The notes beneath the pieces are model-generated. The model saw nothing but the letters and a program-made list of their open reading frames with translations, had not been told where the DNA came from and did no database searches. From assembly GCA_018970165.1 (NCBI GenBank), contig JAGWWZ010000026.1, forward strand, positions 1 to 38,154: a stretch of 38,154 bases of DNA. The letters are read 5' to 3'. A program made the translations under genes and the position numbers. Source of the stretch: Planctomycetota bacterium. Its GTDB lineage: Bacteria > Planctomycetota > Planctomycetia > Pirellulales > Pirellulaceae. Positions 7,238 through 16,466 of this stretch are shown piece after piece; the first letter of the stretch is position 1; every line of letters starts with the position of its first letter.

Positions 7238-8812
7238 CTATTTTTTAATGGCCGTTTCGGCTTCGGAGAGCGTTTCCTGAAGAGCTTGTAGTTCGGGGAA
7301 TTTAGAAGCGACTGGCTTTAGGATATCTATGGTTGCCCCAAAATCCCCCTTCGCAATCAGAATCTTGCCTAGGACAACATAGAGTGCTGGCTCCTGTATC
7401 TGACCAGCAACGGCTTGACGCGCGAACAGTTCTGCCTCATCAAATCGTTTTGTTTCTGGTCGGGCGAGAACACTCGCAAGATTGCTGTAGGCTAGAGCGA
7501 TTGTAGGTTGGAGCGATTGCGCTTGACCCAAATGCCAAGTCGCCGTGGACGAGCCCTCTGGATTTATTGCGGCCAGGAAACCGATTGCGAAGTGAGCGGC
7601 GGTCGGATTGTATCCGGATACAAGCAATCGTTCAAAGATTGCCGTAAGTTCCTTTCGGCTAGGCTCTTCCATGTTGCGGCTAAACAGCCCTTCCAATCGA
7701 AGGTAAACATCGCGGCTGTTCAAGTCCAGCGTCATGGCCTGCATCAATGGAGAGAGTTTCTCGACAAAGTTGGCCTTTTCGGTCATCCCATCGAACTGCA
7801 AGACAAACAATTCGGAAAGTGCGCTGCGCATATCCTGGTCTTGATGGAACTCAAGACCCGCGATCAATGTTTTCTCTGCTTCTGCAAATCGCTTGAGCTT
7901 CGCGAACGCTGAAGCTAGACGAATGCGGGACGTTTTGTCAGCGGGCCTTTCTTCGATTCTCTTCGCAAAGACCTCCACCGCGCTCTCGAGAGCCTGTTTG
8001 GAAGCGATGGTGTTTTCTCGATTCAACTCAAGTTCGGAGAGTGCGAAGTAATGCAATGGATTCAGCTTCGCTGCTTGTTGGAGTGTTTCTGCCGTCTTGG
8101 TGTCATTGTTGCGAGCTTGATACAGTTTCGCCCACAGGAGAAGACGTTGCTCTTGGTCTCGGAAACTAGAATTTTCCAAATGCCATTGGAGGCTGTCGAG
8201 CTTTTCCTGGCTCGGGCTCGATTCGTAATCCTTGATCAAATCAATGGCGCGAAATTGGTGAGCCGGTGGGTAACCAATCCTCCCATCAGGAGCGATCGCC
8301 GCCATGACAGCCTCTGCGATATCCCTTCGCTCCAAATTCGCGTTTGCGATACCGTAAAGATACAACGTCTCTCGCTCTTGGTTCTTGGGTGGTACGGCCA
8401 CCAACCTTTTCGCATGAAGTATCCCGTCGACTAAATTTTTTTTCCCCATGCTCGCAATGGCTTGAGCGTTGTATCGTCTCGTAAACCTTTCTCGGAAATA
8501 GGCATGCCCAACCACGATCGCCACCATGCAACTAAAGCAAAAAAACGCAGGCAGCCCTCTCAAGTAACATGTTCGATTTGCAGGGGAAAGAAAAAACCCC
8601 CGCACAGGAACCGTGATCAGCCAAAGCGTTGTATTGAACAGCCAAATGACACCACGCAATGGAAGCAGCGACAGCCACCGCATCCAGCTCCTGTCGGGTG
8701 CCGCTTCCTCGTCCAGTTCCGTCAGGGCGAGCCACCTACCCGTGACCCAATCGATTGCCAAGGCAATGATGTGAAGAACTCGAAACGGTAACTCAAAAAG
8801 GAACTGCCACAT
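7238..8812 (-). CDS. Membrane-anchored TPR protein of the exosortase/polysaccharide cluster
   Basis: The 524-residue protein has an N-terminal membrane region with about three hydrophobic segments (roughly 5-25, 48-75 and 83-103). The rest is helical repeat. TPR-like units are visible in the second half, for example LNPLHYFALSEL, KRFAEAEKTLIAGLEF and a final stretch from about 445 to 520 with SNLASVLARPE and LYVVLGKILIAKGDFG. TPR proteins usually act as scaffolds for export or assembly complexes. It starts 12 bases after the stop of the pseudo-exosortase gene, with AGGA 5 bases before the ATG, so it is probably the last gene of that transcription unit. Its precise role is unknown. Scaffolding of polysaccharide or exosortase machinery is inferred from position. 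Confidence 0.85.
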   Translation of the reverse strand: MWQFLFELPFRVLHIIALAIDWVTGRWLALTELDEEAAPDRSWMRWLSLLPLRGVIWLFNTTLWLITVPVRGFFLSPANRTCYLRGLPAFFCFSCMVAIVVGHAYFRERFTRRYNAQAIASMGKKNLVDGILHAKRLVAVPPKNQERETLYLYGIANANLERRDIAEAVMAAIAPDGRIGYPPAHQFRAIDLIKDYESSPSQEKLDSLQWHLENSSFRDQEQRLLLWAKLYQARNNDTKTAETLQQAAKLNPLHYFALSELELNRENTIASKQALESAVEVFAKRIEERPADKTSRIRLASAFAKLKRFAEAEKTLIAGLEFHQDQDMRSALSELFVLQFDGMTEKANFVEKLSPLMQAMTLDLNSRDVYLRLEGLFSRNMEEPSRKELTAIFERLLVSGYNPTAAHFAIGFLAAINPEGSSTATWHLGQAQSLQPTIALAYSNLASVLARPETKRFDEAELFARQAVAGQIQEPALYVVLGKILIAKGDFGATIDILKPVASKFPELQALQETLSEAETAIKK

Positions 8813-8824
8813 ATGCGTCCTGGC

Positions 8825-10438
8825 CTACCTCGACGTCAACTCGAGGACGTCTTTGTTCACCCATGCAGTGATAGCAGTCCAGCACTGTTTCAGCTCTTCA
8901 AGCATCTCGGAGTCAAGCTGTCTGCTCGAAACCACAAACAGTGAAACGGTGCACGATAGTGGTATTTTCAGGTTCCGCTTTTCCGGCTTGAAAGGCATCT
9001 TTCCCAAAGCCCTCAGCAGATTCTCCTGAACGACACCAGGCAATTTACTTCCCAACTCTAAAGGTGAATTTGCAATCAACGGTGAACCGTATTGGTCAGT
9101 ACCCAATGCCAGGACCGTACACACCTCGCCCGGCAATCTCGCTAGCTGAGCCATCATCGGCTTGCCATCAGCCTCATCCCTGTCCAAGAATTCAGGTGCT
9201 TTCTCTAATCGCCAACCGGTCCAAAGCCAAGAATACAGATACGGTTTAGGGGTTGTGGTCGATGTAGCGACCTCCAATATCATCTTCTTTCCATCGCGCT
9301 CAAGAACCCAGGATCGCACGGAACTTCCCGCGGGCAACCATGCGGGAGTCTCAGGTGAATCCAGTTGCTCCACCGTCCAAGAGTCAATCTGGCTCGGCAG
9401 TTCTATACGTTCTGCCAGCGTTTGCGATGGCAATATAGCTCGATAGTAGCCTGACAATCGAATCGACAAACCACAGACCAAAAATAAACCGATCACTAAA
9501 CCATAATGAATCCCTGACAGTTTCCATCGAAGTGGTAGCAGGGGCACTGCCTCGCTATCTTGCCCCTCCACGAGATTGCTTTCGTTGAAGGTCGAACGAA
9601 GAGTGCTCGCAAGAAACTGATCACCGCTCCATGTGAAGAAGAGAATCGCGACGAATTTGACATAGTCCCATAGTGCGACCACAGATGGAAAATCAAGCCA
9701 GTTGCCTCCGTATTGCTTGTTTGCAAGGAGGATGGTTGCTCCCGTAGCATTTCCAACGATCACCCACCCAACCGCTTGAAAAACATTTACCGTGGTCCGG
9801 ATCCAGCCGTACCGATAATGGATCCCCCAAGCAATCACAATGAAGACAGTAGGGAACAGCCAAGATACCCCTTGGAACAGTTCCGGGAAAAGTTTCTGCT
9901 CACTGATCAGCCCGAGTACATTTCCCTCCGAGAAGAAAAAGATTCGCAGAAAATCGAGCATGACCGTCGTCATGCTAGTGGAGGTCGATTGAAGGGCCAA
10001 AGTAGCCCACGGCTCGCAAGCAATCGGGACTGGGTTGAGAAAGATCAGTAGGATGAGGATGGGTCGAATCGCAACGATACCGGGTTTTCCGAACTCCCCG
10101 TAAACAGCCATACCTAGCAGGTACAGAAAAGTGAGCCACCCGAGGAAGGGCGAATGTGCGAGTTGGGCAATAAACGCCAACGTCAGTCCGAGGACTCCCA
10201 ACAAAACGATTGAACTCGGATCACCTTGGACTCGCTCTCTGCGCTGCAACCGTTCGTTGACTAACGTTCGTTGCAATAACTCAGCGCGACGGGTCCAGAG
10301 CAACGCGCCAGCGACCACCAGAGCTGCACCAACCCAAATCCAGCTCCCCTGGGCAAAAGACGCGTAACGCAGGTACTCGAGCAACAGTGCGCCAACGGCC
10401 GCAAGGGTTGCGATGATAAAGAGGATCAGACCTTTCAT
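8825..10438 (-). CDS. Catalytically degenerate exosortase-like membrane protein
   Basis: The 537-residue protein has about eight hydrophobic segments in the first 300 residues and a C-terminal extracytoplasmic domain of about 215 residues. It aligns without gaps to the exosortase encoded at 14691-16466, at a constant offset of 28 residues. NPVPI 135-139 matches LPFPF 163-167, GNVLGL 172-177 matches GNVLEL 200-205, and GN 229-230 matches GN 257-258. The three catalytic positions are all changed: Phe188 for Cys216, Gly233 for Arg261 and Val254 for His282. The C-terminal domains also look related (TGWRLE here, TGWTLT there). The frame is long and intact, so this is a maintained gene and not a decayed copy. 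It lies between the Wzc-type kinase and the TPR gene. A structural or partner role with the active exosortase is inferred. Confidence 0.88.
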   Translation of the reverse strand: MKGLILFIIATLAAVGALLLEYLRYASFAQGSWIWVGAALVVAGALLWTRRAELLQRTLVNERLQRRERVQGDPSSIVLLGVLGLTLAFIAQLAHSPFLGWLTFLYLLGMAVYGEFGKPGIVAIRPILILLIFLNPVPIACEPWATLALQSTSTSMTTVMLDFLRIFFFSEGNVLGLISEQKLFPELFQGVSWLFPTVFIVIAWGIHYRYGWIRTTVNVFQAVGWVIVGNATGATILLANKQYGGNWLDFPSVVALWDYVKFVAILFFTWSGDQFLASTLRSTFNESNLVEGQDSEAVPLLPLRWKLSGIHYGLVIGLFLVCGLSIRLSGYYRAILPSQTLAERIELPSQIDSWTVEQLDSPETPAWLPAGSSVRSWVLERDGKKMILEVATSTTTPKPYLYSWLWTGWRLEKAPEFLDRDEADGKPMMAQLARLPGEVCTVLALGTDQYGSPLIANSPLELGSKLPGVVQENLLRALGKMPFKPEKRNLKIPLSCTVSLFVVSSRQLDSEMLEELKQCWTAITAWVNKDVLELTSR

Positions 10439-10484: not shown

Positions 10485-12929
10485 CTACGCTTTGCCTGCT
10501 TTTTTACTCGAGGTTTGCTTCCCTACAGCGTCGGAATAGTTGGAGTACTCTCGTGCGTAATACTTGGAGTAACGGTACCCGTAGTAATTTGAGCCGTAGT
10601 AGGCACCACGGTAATAGGTCCCGTATTCGTTATAGTACAAGTTTTGATCCATTCCGTTGACGATGACACCCATCAAATTGCCTTTGACCATGTCGAGTCG
10701 CTCTTTGGCCTTGTGAGCAGAGAGGATCACCCCTCTTCTAATCCGAAGAACCATAATGATTCCGTCGGCAACGCTGCAGATGCTTGTGGAATCCGCGACC
10801 GGAATAATGGGAGGGCAATCGATCAGAACGAAGTCGAATCTATTCCGTAGTTCGGTGATCAAGTTCGCATATGCGGGCGAAGAGACCAACTCCCCCGGGT
10901 TTTTTGGCCGTCCCCCAGTGGTCAGGAGCGTTAGATTATTTTGGAACTCACAGGGGCGCATCGCCTCATCGAGCGAAACCTCGCCGGACAAAACTTGCCA
11001 CGCACCCAAATCATCCTGGATTCCGAAATTCTGCTTTACCCGTGGACGTCGGAAGTCCGAGTCGATCAAACAGACTTTTTTGTCTGTCTGGGCGAGAGAG
11101 ATCGCAAGATTGGCAATGGTCGTCGACTTACCATCCCCCGGCGATGGACTCGTGACCATGAATACTTTATGGCCCGTCTGCCCGGCCGTGAACAGTAGAG
11201 AGGTTCGAGCGGCGCGGAAAGTCTCCGATGCGGAATTGCTCGGACTTCTTGCCGTGATGAGCATGGGAGAGCCTGCAAAATCCTTATCGGACCGACTCGT
11301 CTTGATTCTCGGAACCTTACATAAAACCGGTGCATTCATGCTTTCCTGGATGTCGATGGGGGTTCGATAGGCGAGGTCGGAATGGTCGATGAGAACCGCG
11401 AGAGCAGCGCCGATAAGCCCACCGAGCAAAGTGCCCATAAGAAGGAATCGAGACAGCACGGGGGATACCTGTTGCGGCGATGAAGGTTCGTCGATGATCA
11501 CGACACGAGTCGCCGAGTAATTCTTCTCACTGGAAATCACTTCGAGTGCTGCGAGTTTTTCGAGTACCTGCGACACAGAGGCACCGGAATCCCTGATTTG
11601 ATCCCTCAACATATTTACTTCAACAACATCCTCCAAGATATCCTTGGATTTTTCTGTGAGGACTTTGATGTCCTCATCGATCTTATCAAGATTGTATTTC
11701 GCTCGTTCCCGCCGGCTTTGTAGGGATGCCATGTAAAGACGGAGGACTTCTGCTTCGCGATTTCGAGCATCCTCAATGGCAGCTTCTTCCTTCTTCGACT
11801 TCCCTGCTTCATTATCCGCTATGGCTCTGAGGGCATCCATCTCCTCCATCAATCGATTCTTTGCCACAAGTGCGGTTCGGTATTTCGAGTTGATGAATTC
11901 CACTTGCGGATGGTTCTCACCGAAACGTCTGGCGGTCTCGGTCCGTTCGGCTTCCAAGCCAAGAATGTCGGTATTGAGTATCTCAAGCCGTTGCTCGTAG
12001 CGTTGAAACCGTTGTTGATCTTCCGATGCACCCATCGCGTACCCTGCGTCAGGTCCGATGAGGTTGAAGAATTTCCTCGCCTCAATCACCACCAATTTCA
12101 TCGCATCTTCGTTTGGCGGATTGGCGTCGATCGCTTGCTGTGCTTCCAGAATCAACTGATCCGCATTGCGGTAGTCCTTCATGTAACTATCCCGCTCCAT
12201 CTTCAGTTTTGACAAGTCACTTAGGTAGGGACTCTCGAAACTCCCACCATCCGACTCTGCGACCAAACCAAGTTCTTTTACCAATTGGTAGTAGCGGCTT
12301 TCCGCAGCGGTCTTGTCTTGCTCCAGCTTTTTCTTCAGTTCATTGATCAGATCTTTCGAAGTTTCCCCCGACTCGCGGTAATCATCGGTAGTAGCGGCGG
12401 TGAACTGCTCAACTACTTTTTCTAGAATCGGTTTGAGATCATCGGGATTTCTTCCCTCGCAACGAATCTCAATCGCATCGGAGGAGGCATCTTTGCCCAC
12501 CGCCGTAACGGTCAGCATGCTGCGTAATATGTTCAAAGGAGCACTTGAATTTTCAAAAGTCCCCAGTTTTCCCAAGCTACCAGCCTCGAACGCAGTTTTG
12601 AGAACTTTCGTACTGGACATGAGGGTACGGTGTTTTTCCAGAGCGACACGTTGCGGGATGATGTCTCCATCGATCACGCTCGGGGGGGCCTGAGTCCACA
12701 ACATGATCCGCATCCGCGACATGTAGGATGGAATCTGCTGGGCGCAATAGAGCCACCCTAACCCAGCCCCGACAGCGGCCAATAGAATCACCACCGATTT
12801 CCGACGCCATAAGCCCCCCACGAAATCGATGTTGGGAACAGCCTTGTCCTCGCCGGTGGGTATCTGGGGCATGGACCGATAACCCGGCAAGCCGTCCTCG
12901 GAGTCCTGACTCGCGATCGCTTGATTCAT
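10485..12929 (-). CDS. Wzc/CapB-type polysaccharide chain-length regulator and tyrosine autokinase
   Basis: This inner-membrane protein couples polysaccharide export to tyrosine phosphorylation. The product has 814 residues. An N-terminal membrane segment (about 44-62) precedes a Wzz-like periplasmic domain, a long coiled coil (about 180-460) and a second membrane segment with a Pro/Gly-rich stretch (about 500-525). The cytoplasmic BY-kinase follows: Walker A SPGDGKST with Lys601, A-prime motif CLIDSDFRRPR and Walker B FVLIDCPP. The C-terminus carries 15 tyrosines within about 36 residues, the expected autophosphorylation cluster. ATG 12929 is chosen because AAGGA lies just upstream; the TTG at 12941 has no such site. 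It precedes the pseudo-exosortase gene by 46 bases. No separate phosphatase, Wza or glycosyltransferase gene is in the window. Confidence 0.93.
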   Translation of the reverse strand: MNQAIASQDSEDGLPGYRSMPQIPTGEDKAVPNIDFVGGLWRRKSVVILLAAVGAGLGWLYCAQQIPSYMSRMRIMLWTQAPPSVIDGDIIPQRVALEKHRTLMSSTKVLKTAFEAGSLGKLGTFENSSAPLNILRSMLTVTAVGKDASSDAIEIRCEGRNPDDLKPILEKVVEQFTAATTDDYRESGETSKDLINELKKKLEQDKTAAESRYYQLVKELGLVAESDGGSFESPYLSDLSKLKMERDSYMKDYRNADQLILEAQQAIDANPPNEDAMKLVVIEARKFFNLIGPDAGYAMGASEDQQRFQRYEQRLEILNTDILGLEAERTETARRFGENHPQVEFINSKYRTALVAKNRLMEEMDALRAIADNEAGKSKKEEAAIEDARNREAEVLRLYMASLQSRRERAKYNLDKIDEDIKVLTEKSKDILEDVVEVNMLRDQIRDSGASVSQVLEKLAALEVISSEKNYSATRVVIIDEPSSPQQVSPVLSRFLLMGTLLGGLIGAALAVLIDHSDLAYRTPIDIQESMNAPVLCKVPRIKTSRSDKDFAGSPMLITARSPSNSASETFRAARTSLLFTAGQTGHKVFMVTSPSPGDGKSTTIANLAISLAQTDKKVCLIDSDFRRPRVKQNFGIQDDLGAWQVLSGEVSLDEAMRPCEFQNNLTLLTTGGRPKNPGELVSSPAYANLITELRNRFDFVLIDCPPIIPVADSTSICSVADGIIMVLRIRRGVILSAHKAKERLDMVKGNLMGVIVNGMDQNLYYNEYGTYYRGAYYGSNYYGYRYSKYYAREYSNYSDAVGKQTSSKKAGKA

Positions 12930-13194
12930 AATGTCCTTCAAGATGGGGGCGTTATACTCAGGGCTATCATTGATGTTCCGTTAAGCGTTAGGGATGGTCA
13001 AGTGTTTAGCATGACGAATACTCCGAAAACTAACAGAGTCCCGTTAGGAACTCGCTATCCTCTAGTTGAAGGGGATGGACGACTATGCTGCTTGTATGCA
13101 TTTTGCCGCGTGCGTTGACTATTCCGCCCCTGAAGCTTTCGGAGCGGATCGAATGGGTCCATTCATTCTAAACCCAACGATTCCCAGCGCTTGT
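12930..13194 (-). promoter_or_regulatory. Leader and candidate promoter of the Wzc-type kinase gene
   Basis: This 265-base gap is the only sizeable break inside the five-gene minus-strand cluster, so it may carry its own promoter. On the minus strand a TATAAC box lies at 12956-12951, with a weak GGAACA 17 bases upstream. It would give a leader of about 15 bases containing the AAGGA ribosome-binding site. The -35 match is poor, so this is a suggestion only. No gene is seen in the gap. Confidence 0.3.
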
Positions 13195-14688
13195 TTACGG
13201 CTCATGCGTTGCTTGAGATCCCTTGGAATCCAACTTTTGGCTGTCCATCGCGGAACGCGTCGTCCCGGTTTTTGCGTTCATAAATTCCTCACTTATGCGT
13301 TGCAGGCTGGAGTTTTCCGGGTCAGCCTCCAAAAGTGAATCGAGCATTCTCATAAGAGTGCTATGCTCCACCGGTGTACGCTGTCGAGCAACGCGTATGG
13401 CAACAATCGCACCCGGCACGAAGGATGGGTCTAACCGAGGCAATTCACGCGTAGTATTTGTCGCAGCGATTGCGTCTTCTGCAGCCACTGACCTGACCCA
13501 GTCGATCCAATCGGAGATCCCTGGTTCGTGCCCTCCCTTCATCGTCTCTAACCAATCGTGACCGACGGCATCGACGTTGTTTTCCAATAGCAACCGGATC
13601 ACTTGAACCAACTGTGGCGAATCGGGTGCAAATTTCACCGCAAAGCTGAAAAGCAGGGGGACGTTTCGCTTCGCTTGCGGATCGGATTGGTGGAGTTGAA
13701 CCACCATCGCTCGAAGAGAGCTGGCGGCTACATTCCAACGAAAAATCTCGCGCTCGGCAGCTGGCATGTCGGCGAGACTTGTCCATGCGAAATCGAACGC
13801 CTCGGCGGGATTGCCCATATACAGTCGCAATCGAAAAATCGCCTCGCGAGCCCTCCAATCCCAGGGAATCTGCTTGATATCCCGGACCGATTCAGAAACA
13901 AACTTTATGGCTTCGACGTTTGCACGCTTATGCTCCAACACTGCTGATATCTCCACTTGCGAAGCATTTCTTTCAAGTGATGCAAGCCGTTCCTGATCGA
14001 GAAGTTTCCTCGCTCTTCGCATCGATGCATGAATTTCGTTCCACTTTTCTTGCTCGGGGAATCGCAGTGCGCGGTGGATCATCATGTCCGCAAACAACAG
14101 TTTCGCTGGCACACCCATTGCGATGAGTTCCTCGCACTGCTTCATAGACTCCGGGCTCTCTACGCCCATGTCGGCAGACCGGTCTCGCATGCTGCGAAAA
14201 CTCCAATCTAGAAGCCAATGGCGAGCTTGCAATGCATCGGCCCCTTCGAGTTTAGTTGCCCGTTGCATCGCTTGGATTGCTCGCGCCTTGGCATTAACAG
14301 CGAGTTCATTCCATTTCGTCAAAATTTCCGCTCGTTTGTCCGCATGAGACGCGATGGCGTTCTGGATCCTTTCATACGATACGAGCCCAATCCGTGCCGA
14401 CTGCAGAATCCTTTGCGCCGAATAAGGATTCTCGACCACAAGACGTTTCGCGGCAATTTCAGCCCGCCGCATGTCGCTCTCGCTCCAAAGTTCTCCCTTG
14501 CCCCTGTTTGCCTCCATGTATTCCGCGACGAGCTTCTCGTAACGCGGAATAACTCGTTTCTGGGCAAGGTAACTTGCAACGGTGAAGGATCCCGCGATCA
14601 TCGCTAATGCCAGTGACGGAATACTCCATCGCAAGTATTTGCGCCGGGTTTCTTCGATTTCTGCTAGCGACTTTTGGATATCTCTCAT
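13195..14688 (-). CDS. Membrane-anchored helical-repeat protein next to the exosortase
   Basis: The 497-residue protein has a short cytoplasmic N-terminus rich in charged residues, one membrane helix at about 23-43 (LALAMIAGSFTVASYLA) and a long, mostly helical, highly charged extracytoplasmic part. TPR-like periodicity is suggested by repeated Ala/Leu/Arg helices, but no unit is strong enough to count. The ATG at 14688 lies 2 bases after the exosortase stop, so translation is probably coupled; an upstream TTG at 14694 overlaps that stop. It occupies the same relative position as the TPR gene behind the pseudo-exosortase, and the two products share general architecture. Function is unknown. 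A scaffold or chaperone role for the exosortase is inferred from position. Confidence 0.82.
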   Translation of the reverse strand: MRDIQKSLAEIEETRRKYLRWSIPSLALAMIAGSFTVASYLAQKRVIPRYEKLVAEYMEANRGKGELWSESDMRRAEIAAKRLVVENPYSAQRILQSARIGLVSYERIQNAIASHADKRAEILTKWNELAVNAKARAIQAMQRATKLEGADALQARHWLLDWSFRSMRDRSADMGVESPESMKQCEELIAMGVPAKLLFADMMIHRALRFPEQEKWNEIHASMRRARKLLDQERLASLERNASQVEISAVLEHKRANVEAIKFVSESVRDIKQIPWDWRAREAIFRLRLYMGNPAEAFDFAWTSLADMPAAEREIFRWNVAASSLRAMVVQLHQSDPQAKRNVPLLFSFAVKFAPDSPQLVQVIRLLLENNVDAVGHDWLETMKGGHEPGISDWIDWVRSVAAEDAIAATNTTRELPRLDPSFVPGAIVAIRVARQRTPVEHSTLMRMLDSLLEADPENSSLQRISEEFMNAKTGTTRSAMDSQKLDSKGSQATHEP

Positions 14689-14690
14689 AC

Positions 14691-16466
14691 TCAATCGAAC
14701 TCACGTTGCATAAATTCGAATATGGGTTGCATCTCGATCAGGAACCGCTCGCGACAGGCCTGGAACTCCCTTCGCGTCCCCTCGATATGATCCGCGCTGG
14801 GAACCTCCGTCCCCGAAGTCAGCAACTGAAACTGCACCGTCAGGGGCAAAGCGTTTCTTTTGGATGGGAATACGATAAACCTATCCCGAACAGCTCGCGA
14901 AAACTCATCCAACCACCTTGCGCGATGCTCTGTATCGGCGACGGAATCGACGAATCGTGTCGCGTTGTTATCGAAGGGATTCCCACTGATTTCTGCATGA
15001 ACGAAATGAAGAATTGCCCACTGGCCCTCGGGTCCACGCATAATGATTTCATTGATCGGCCAATTTTTCTTAAGGTGCTCGGAGAACAGATCAATCGTTC
15101 GCTCACTGGTCAACGTCCACCCTGTTCCGGCGTAACAGACCCAGAGGGGGTGGCCACCTCGAAACGGCAAATCAAGGGACAACATTTGCGTGCTGCCAAC
15201 GCTGCTGACTCTCCATGTCCGTGAACATTGCCCCTCTTGATGCCCTCTAAAGCGGCGAACGGTTTCAAATGCGATGTCGCTCGAGCCCAATAGTCTTGGT
15301 ATGGAAGATCTTTCGCCAGGTAGGGAGGCAATGAATCGCTCCGCAAGTAACGGGACATTTGTACTGAAATAGGAACCGCTGATAAAAAACCAACCCAAGG
15401 GAACAAAAATCAAAAGGCCACATGCGACCGAGATTCCGAAGTTTGTAACGGACAAGGAGTTGTGGTTTTGTAAAGTCTCGGATCCTGATAGATGATTCCG
15501 GATACGCGATTGGGTCAATTGACAAGAGGGTGCGATTATCCACTCGAGCCAGTTTAGAAATTGAACTGAACTCCAATGTGCCCACGCGGCCATCGCAAAA
15601 GCAATCAGCCCTAGCAACGTGTGTTGCCAGCCAATCGAAAGATCGATACCCAAGTATTCGACCCCCATCACAATGGAAAATATGCGAAGCATATTTCCCA
15701 AAATCGCCCAGATTGGAACCGTAATAATCGTTAGGATCGAGACCCAAACACTGGCTCGACCAAAAAGCAACAGGATTCCCGCAACTGCCATCAACGCATA
15801 CTGACTATCAACGCCACTGCACGCCTCCTCCACAAGCAGTTGCTTATTGGCCAGCTCCAAGACATTTCCCATTCGCACGTGCAAGATGCCGAGCGAGTCC
15901 ATCATCCGGCTACACGCAAACGAGGAAATACGCTGCAACGTGCGAACCAATTCTTGATCGCCATTGAAAGGAAACGGTAGGGTAATAAGTCCTAGCCCAC
16001 TAATACCGAGCATGCGAGTCAACGATAAATGACCAAACTTTCCAACCATCCAAAAGAAAAGTGCGGCGACGCTTGTGAGGTGTGCGAGCCACGAACTATG
16101 TATGACTGAGGCCACGACTGTCAGACAGATGACCGACCAAGCCCCTATTCGAGCCAATGAACTACGTCGCTCAGACGGCCTTCTCCGTAGCCCTTCCGTG
16201 ACGATGAACCAAATCACGGCCACTATTGCCAAGGGGAAGAATTGCATGTGCTGCTTATTCCACAGCATCCTAGCACCTACCACCAACAAGGGTGAAAGCG
16301 CAAGCAAAGGCAAGGCGAGGCTAAACCAATCCCAGCGGTCCCATCCTCGGACCCATTCAAGGCATAGTTGCGGTAGAGACGAATAAGATTTGGGTGCTGA
16401 ATCTGAGGCGACTTTCTGCTGCGTTTCGCTAGTTGGGTTCGGAGAGGCTTGGTGTTCTACGAGCAT
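14691..16466 (-). CDS. xrtU: Exosortase, XrtU type
   Basis: Exosortases are polytopic membrane cysteine transpeptidases that process proteins with a C-terminal sorting signal and usually accompany exopolysaccharide genes. The 591-residue protein has a soluble N-terminus, about eight to nine membrane helices (about 48-330) and a C-terminal extracytoplasmic domain of about 240 residues. The catalytic triad is complete: Cys216 in EEACSG, Arg261 in GNMLRIF and His282 in GWQH. Length and arrangement fit the planctomycete exosortase group called XrtU, a name recalled and not checked. The ATG at 16466 has no clear ribosome-binding site. It heads the minus-strand surface cluster and is followed 2 bases later by the anchored repeat protein. 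No protein with a PEP-CTERM-like tail was recognised in the window, so substrates lie elsewhere. Confidence 0.92.
   Translation of the reverse strand: MLVEHQASPNPTSETQQKVASDSAPKSYSSLPQLCLEWVRGWDRWDWFSLALPLLALSPLLVVGARMLWNKQHMQFFPLAIVAVIWFIVTEGLRRRPSERRSSLARIGAWSVICLTVVASVIHSSWLAHLTSVAALFFWMVGKFGHLSLTRMLGISGLGLITLPFPFNGDQELVRTLQRISSFACSRMMDSLGILHVRMGNVLELANKQLLVEEACSGVDSQYALMAVAGILLLFGRASVWVSILTIITVPIWAILGNMLRIFSIVMGVEYLGIDLSIGWQHTLLGLIAFAMAAWAHWSSVQFLNWLEWIIAPSCQLTQSRIRNHLSGSETLQNHNSLSVTNFGISVACGLLIFVPLGWFFISGSYFSTNVPLLAERFIASLPGERSSIPRLLGSSDIAFETVRRFRGHQEGQCSRTWRVSSVGSTQMLSLDLPFRGGHPLWVCYAGTGWTLTSERTIDLFSEHLKKNWPINEIIMRGPEGQWAILHFVHAEISGNPFDNNATRFVDSVADTEHRARWLDEFSRAVRDRFIVFPSKRNALPLTVQFQLLTSGTEVPSADHIEGTRREFQACRERFLIEMQPIFEFMQREFD

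Follow-up and report, generated by a model that had tools for sequence, protein, structure and literature searches.

An exosortase-family protein without the catalytic triad, next to a Wzc-type co-polymerase gene and an intact exosortase U in a planctomycete genus

The window analysed here, a stretch of 38,154 nucleotides from the Planctomycetota assembly GCA_018970165.1 (family Pirellulaceae; contig JAGWWZ010000026.1), carries on its minus strand a run of five genes that includes two members of the exosortase family, one with and one without the catalytic residues. The run opens with exosortase U (XrtU, 14691..16466; model NF033780 at 79.9 bits against a cut-off of 40, PF09721 at 90 bits), whose full triad of Cys216 (15819..15821), Arg261 (15684..15686) and His282 (15621..15623) was read from the alignment and the DNA. 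XrtU overlaps by 4 bp the gene behind it, TPR499 (13195..14694), the start codon of which is uncertain and which has no Pfam TPR match of its own. After a further 253 bp comes a Wzc-type polysaccharide co-polymerase with a BY tyrosine kinase domain and a Tyr-rich tail (10485..12941; TIGR01007 at 143 bits, cut-off 108), then, after 46 bp, the gene of the triad-less protein, here called pXrt (8825..10438), and 12 bp behind it TPR524 (7238..8812), which encodes a TPR protein (TPR_19, E 2.4e-6) with an N-terminal hydrophobic segment recognized by eye. A profile comparison shows TPR499 to be a homologue of TPR524 (hhalign probability 97.4%, E 1.3e-11), so that the locus can be read as two exosortase-TPR modules arranged around one exporter. 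Judged by their sequences, XrtU-TPR499 is the active module and pXrt-TPR524 the inactive one, with the single Wzc between them. Promoter and terminator scans gave results at chance level.

The pXrt frame is genuine, running for 537 codons from ATG to stop, and its product is homologous to exosortases beyond chance. It matches PF09721 at 37.3 bits (E 2.5e-9; gathering score 25.7) and the XrtU of the window by BLASTP at E 1e-9; its scores against TIGR02602 (28.8 bits) and the XrtD model (38.7 bits) lie below the curated cut-offs of 105.55 and 400. Ten of the 11 pXrt family members scanned, the window copy included, match PF09721 at E 1 or better, and the copy of genome G544 was absent among the PF09721 matches from the genus genomes. 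In its AlphaFold model, pXrt consists of membrane helices followed by an EpsI-like beta-rich domain. The preliminary description had also taken the C-terminal domains of pXrt and XrtU to be related, a claim that is weak for the window copy, which has no match up to E 10 to the XrtU_C model (NF033780, cut-off 40 bits), and that gains support from the four of 11 scanned members that match this model at E 1 or better (best E 3e-4); a profile comparison of the two domains gave 67.7% over 45 columns. A search of viral contigs returned no relative.

According to the account in PMC1569441, active exosortases have conserved Cys, Arg and His residues, and exosortases may also carry a C-terminal region homologous to EpsI. 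BLASTP and a 114-sequence alignment agree that all three catalytic residues are replaced in pXrt, by Phe188 at the position of XrtU Cys216 (9875..9877, codon TTC), Gly233 at that of Arg261 (9740..9742, GGA) and Val254 at that of His282 (9677..9679, GTC). The alignment holds 95 rows with the full triad and 19 without, all retrieved for their similarity to pXrt and XrtU and biased to that extent. The two proteins had been described as aligning free of gaps at an offset of 28 residues; the net offset is indeed 28, and in the BLASTP alignment each of the two sequences has a single 3-residue gap between the Cys and the Arg position.

Orthologues of pXrt reveal a graded picture. Twelve of the 27 genomes of the genus carry the gene, in 13 copies, one of which is cut off before the triad. 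Among the 12 readable copies, the triad positions read Phe-Gly-Val in the window, Phe-Arg-Met in G541, Cys-Arg-Thr in G010 and G533, Cys-Arg-Leu in G123, Cys-Arg-Phe in G545 and G534, Cys-Arg-Ala and Cys-Trp-Ser in the two copies of G535, Cys-Trp-Ser in G532 and G536, and Gly-Met-Gln in G544; in any copy with a gap nearby, the letter at the His place varies with the alignment. The Cys is thus present in nine copies and gone in three, the Arg present in seven and gone in five, both present in six, and the His retained in none, so that the His was probably lost before these lineages parted. The clean triple loss noted at the outset holds for the window copy and recurs in only one relative among the 12. 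Outside the genus, no pXrt was seen among 241 genomes of the family, in which the search score falls from 414 bits for the weakest full-length pXrt to 169 bits for a triad-bearing sister; the only pXrt below that level is the cut copy of G074 (150 bits).

A second site has also been lost. The EpsI-like domain of triad-bearing relatives contains a motif, derived here, of the form His-x-x-x-x-Cys-Tyr-x-Gly-x-Gly-Trp, seen in XrtU as His439 to Trp450 with Cys444 (15117..15152; alignment and DNA). In pXrt it is replaced by Trp404-x-Trp406-x-Gly408-Trp409 (9212..9229; alignment and DNA). None of the 12 pXrt copies retains the His or the Cys of the motif, and all 12 keep Gly408-Trp409. Across the proteins counted, the row L188 included, both residues are kept in 83 of the 86 triad-bearing ones with the domain versus 2 of 25 triad-broken ones, a count over related rows for which no p-value is claimed and in which L150, whose motif is shifted by an insertion, was scored as keeping; the domain is missing or cut in 15 of 95 triad-bearing rows. 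The exceptions are L121 (with an odd tail), L178 and L179, in which the triad is intact and the His/Cys pair lost, and L132 and L144, in which the triad is broken and the pair kept. The His and Cys of triad-bearing exosortases, here at 15117-15152 and in the homologues, may represent a second functional centre.

Structure prediction of each protein singly gave models of pXrt (pLDDT 67.7, pTM 0.65) and XrtU (68.4, 0.52) that share much the same order of elements, namely membrane helices, strands, a helix, a strand and a long last helix, to which the XrtU model adds a short helix and further strands; the two models are not independent, since the alignment used for XrtU also contained pXrt rows. 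The region of the Trp motif in the pXrt model has a pLDDT under 50. A Foldseek comparison of both models with the PDB returned no match at E 0.001 or better, and searching the sequences of solved structures with the two exosortases of the window returned no relative. The C-terminal domains of both models gave many weak Foldseek matches (E above 0.2) to START/Bet v 1-like lipid-binding folds.

Phylogenetic trees were built with the triad columns removed, one of 81 rows that omits 33 of 114 and one of 91 rows that omits 43 of 134, the omitted rows being near-duplicates, long branches, and short or remote sequences. In both, the 12 pXrt copies form one clade with support of 100/100. A pair without the His (L051, L052) joins this clade at 97/83 in the 81-row tree or 95/80 in the 91-row tree, and the combined group is placed near triad-bearing exosortases. 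A recent duplication of the neighbouring XrtU was ruled out as the origin of pXrt, the two falling into separate lineages; pXrt is a copy from a different exosortase lineage. In G549 and G539, genus members without pXrt, a triad-bearing relative stands first in an Xrt-TPR-Wzc series whose TPR gene is a TPR524 homologue. Because the pXrt clade sits near triad-bearing exosortases and such TPR/Wzc modules contain triad-bearing ones, the most likely course, judged from the sequences, is that a triad-bearing module exosortase lost its His first and then Cys and Arg separately.

The triad has changed several times independently in this set. Seven state changes are needed in the 91-row tree, all 7 forced by well-supported branches, and five in the 81-row tree, 4 of them forced; such counts cannot distinguish gain from loss, and two of the changes rest on the long branches L156 and L157 and one on a G024 pair with single replacements. 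A gene matching the TPR524 profile lies 3' of 36 of the 71 testable triad-bearing exosortases and of 12 of 17 triad-broken ones (window excluded), and these exosortase-TPR pairs often have a Wzc-type exporter nearby. The order of the window recurs in G596, from another genus (L128:7162-16001), as a triad-bearing exosortase, a weakly TPR-like gene, Wzc, a triad-broken exosortase (Cys-Lys-Ser) and a TPR gene, with the triad-broken copy in a different part of the trees from pXrt. The gene behind that copy matches the TPR524 profile at 81.6 bits, and the one behind the intact exosortase reaches 22.7 bits with TPR_14, below the cut-off of 23.5, and matches neither the TPR524 nor the TPR499 profile. 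Tandem triad-broken exosortases, with no TPR gene, occur in G569 and G049, whose relatives L134 and L139 have no extra copy.

Within the genus of the window, a second clade, sister to XrtU, comprises L172-L177 (from G543, G548, G539, G550, G549 and G136) and the sisters L178 and L179. Its triad is broken in six of the eight members and the EpsI-like His/Cys pair is absent in all eight; a TPR524-profile gene follows 3' in seven, the eighth being cut by the contig. A large gene (TgpA-like in L172) precedes the exosortase in each of the six loci inspected, and L173 has a gene for ribosomal L21 nearby. None of the 8 genomes with this clade carries pXrt, a split that may be explained by shared ancestry. 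Above its cut-off, the XrtU_C model matches five of 10 triad-broken proteins scanned (L172, L175, L177, L128 and L157), so that automatic annotation can label likely non-enzymes as sorting enzymes.

Further forms were encountered across the phylum. In another family, a triad-broken exosortase of 595 aa (Ser-Arg-Val) adjoins an intact one of 335 aa (L220:3617-6290) and retains an EpsI-type His-x-Pro-x-x-Cys segment; it stands outside the His/Cys count given above. Four genomes from a distant genus of planctomycetes contain short exosortases that lack the catalytic Cys and His (L245, L247, L248 and L250), the letters at the His place varying with the alignment. L221, L222 and L232 were considered as non-triad forms and not counted, since the aligned segments have a His at a distance of one or two columns; L186, L231, L237 and L249 (no triad column aligned), L181 (cut before the Cys) and L244 and L253 (without the His column) were left unscored. 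The phylum sample of 79 distinct rows combines loci of the genus (18), best hits (30) and hits picked by hand, most of them weak (40), and its 56 rows with the full triad therefore do not amount to a frequency.

What surrounds pXrt is highly constant. The Wzc/BY kinase gene precedes it in 13 of 13 copies, and a TPR524 homologue adjoins it 3' in all 11 copies, window included, in which the contig continues far enough to tell. All 8 pXrt copies whose contig runs at least 3 kb past Wzc share that contig with XrtU or with part of it; among the relatives examined, TPR499 and Wzc are separated by 3-5.5 kb of intervening genes, by eye glycosyltransferase-like and sugar-nucleotide genes. The constant neighbours of pXrt are Wzc and the TPR gene, not XrtU. 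PEP-CTERM-like proteins were noticed by eye near pXrt loci in relatives (L048:14650-15471, L049:68-748). The window genome encodes three PF09721 proteins and has one PEP-CTERM match over the cut-off, a search that passes the cut-off in two of 14 control genomes.

The reading we favour, and judge from the sequences to be rather probable, is that pXrt is a pseudo-exosortase kept by selection as a non-catalytic membrane subunit that works with its TPR partner at the polysaccharide exporter. The protein would have lost its peptidase/transpeptidase chemistry and been retained for a structural or adaptor job, anchoring TPR524, as a subunit in the inner membrane, next to the Wzc/BY-kinase exporter in a putative complex. 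Its former substrate channel, together with the remodelled C-terminal domain, might then bind a client without cutting it, candidates being a sorting-signal helix, a lipid or a glycan. It is enticing to guess that such a client is handed to XrtU.

The main competing proposal, which we regard as distinctly less probable without dismissing it, makes pXrt a dedicated partner of XrtU, either one half of a heterodimer or a substrate receptor, and so the exosortase counterpart of iRhom-like pseudoproteases. Besides the contig linkage just described, it draws on the finding that 10 of the 12 pXrt genomes have XrtU, its triad intact in all 10, the two genomes in which none was found being 80% and 83% complete; moreover, triad-broken copies lie near an intact one also at L128, L132, L144, L156 and L157 within the family and at L220 in another. 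A strict partnership is harder to square with the five of the 15 remaining genus genomes that have XrtU and no pXrt (G549, G550, G543, G136 and G551, the last on a cut contig and not placed in any tree), with the gene order, in which pXrt adjoins Wzc and TPR524 while the XrtU-TPR499 pair stands apart, and with the rplU-region clade and L051/L052, which have no intact exosortase in the stretch examined (that of L052 reaches the contig end).

Could pXrt instead be a duplicated gene that is decaying into a pseudogene? The graded loss of the triad would fit such decay, as would the somewhat faster change of pXrt, with dN of 0.08-0.12 versus 0.05-0.06 for XrtU in the same pairs. We nevertheless disfavour this explanation as improbable, because its orthologues are under purifying selection. 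NG86 estimates of dN/dS for pXrt are 0.249, 0.224 and 0.182 among G532, G535 and G536 and 0.156 for G010-G533, with 0.164, 0.149 and 0.177 for XrtU in the same trio of pairs, 0.153, 0.219, 0.157 and 0.078 for TPR524, and 0.01-0.02 for Wzc in the trio. Also against decay stand the uninterrupted frames of all 12 readable copies (511-561 codons), the uniform absence of the His, and new near-invariant residues of the clade: Gly176 (12/12 copies; 2% of the 95 triad-bearing relatives), Pro196 (11/12; 0%), Trp404 (11/12; 0%) and Trp406 (12/12; 0%), which mark the pXrt clade. Gln150, Leu161, Asp162, Gly172 and Gly190 are kept in all 12 copies, and the residues beside the catalytic positions drift. Purifying selection and lost catalytic residues, the combination by which a pseudoenzyme is recognized, thus occur together in the orthologues; on the window branch, whose nearest pXrt orthologue is 44% identical, dS is saturated, so that we infer selection there from the intact frame, the conservation and the sister lineages. 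The earlier proposal of selection for a non-catalytic role is accordingly borne out to the extent that a full-length, triad-less protein appears to have been kept, as orthologue dN/dS of 0.16-0.25, synteny and clade-fixed residues suggest.

Very unlikely, in our estimation, is that pXrt is still an enzyme, its chemistry altered so that it can do without the Cys-Arg-His triad. Since six of the 12 copies keep both Cys and Arg, some of them may retain altered chemistry, and Asp162 and C-terminal Trp residues are invariant; yet neither Cys nor Arg is indispensable within this single family of shared synteny, the His and Cys of the EpsI-like domain are gone as well, and the sole invariant residue among Cys, His and Ser is Ser271, common to 73% of triad-bearing relatives. 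An immunity-like regulator of XrtU, or an artefact of assembly or alignment, is in our view scarcely probable, no support having been found for either. Against an artefact, separate MAGs carry the same replaced residues (Phe188 in the window and G541, Trp in G532, G535 and G536), and the profile and pairwise alignments agree.

Relative to the XrtU/EpsH exosortases (NF033780, PF09721, TIGR02602), pXrt shares the membrane core with conserved Gln, Asp and Gly, the EpsI-like C-terminal region, the polysaccharide locus and the TPR neighbour; it differs in forming its own clade, in the absence of the catalytic His throughout and of the entire triad in the window copy, and in the exchange of the EpsI-like His/Cys motif for Trp residues. 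TPR524 resembles PrsT of the PEP-CTERM/EpsH system (TIGR02917) in that both are TPR genes travelling with an exosortase system, at a match of 34.7 bits (E 4.8e-9), far below the cut-off of 312.2 bits. The iRhom-type pseudoproteases of the rhomboid family have an intramembrane protease fold without catalysis; pXrt is predicted to do likewise, in an unrelated family. Conserved residues of ArtA have reportedly been the subject of a mutagenesis study. In the model for ArtA put forward, as speculation, in PMC7157517, the active-site Cys is joined to the substrate, which is then passed to a lipid; pXrt could not work in this way, because it lacks that Cys. One publication applies the term 'exosortase-like' to archaeosortases. 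A literature search that covered few subscription papers found no published pseudo-exosortase, in keeping with the original remark that no described exosortase/pseudo-exosortase pair was known, and nothing relevant on exosortase U or on catalytically inactive exosortases.

A broader proposal can be advanced tentatively, as a possibility that we rate below an even chance. Pseudo-exosortases may form a recurrent class in Planctomycetota, arising through at least 7 triad-state changes (read as losses), in many cases in an additional exosortase close to an intact one. The inactive protein, in most cases together with a TPR partner, would become a client-binding adaptor of a sorting/polysaccharide machine, a counterpart of the iRhoms, and the EpsI-like second functional centre would be lost either along with the membrane triad or earlier. 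The mechanism of exosortases is poorly understood, and naturally occurring triad-less forms reveal which surfaces are important beyond catalysis; the conserved His and Cys of the EpsI-like domain offer a testable lead on EpsI function. In the surface-polysaccharide cluster of this planctomycete, pXrt suggests that the fold of an enzyme has been put to a non-enzymatic use.
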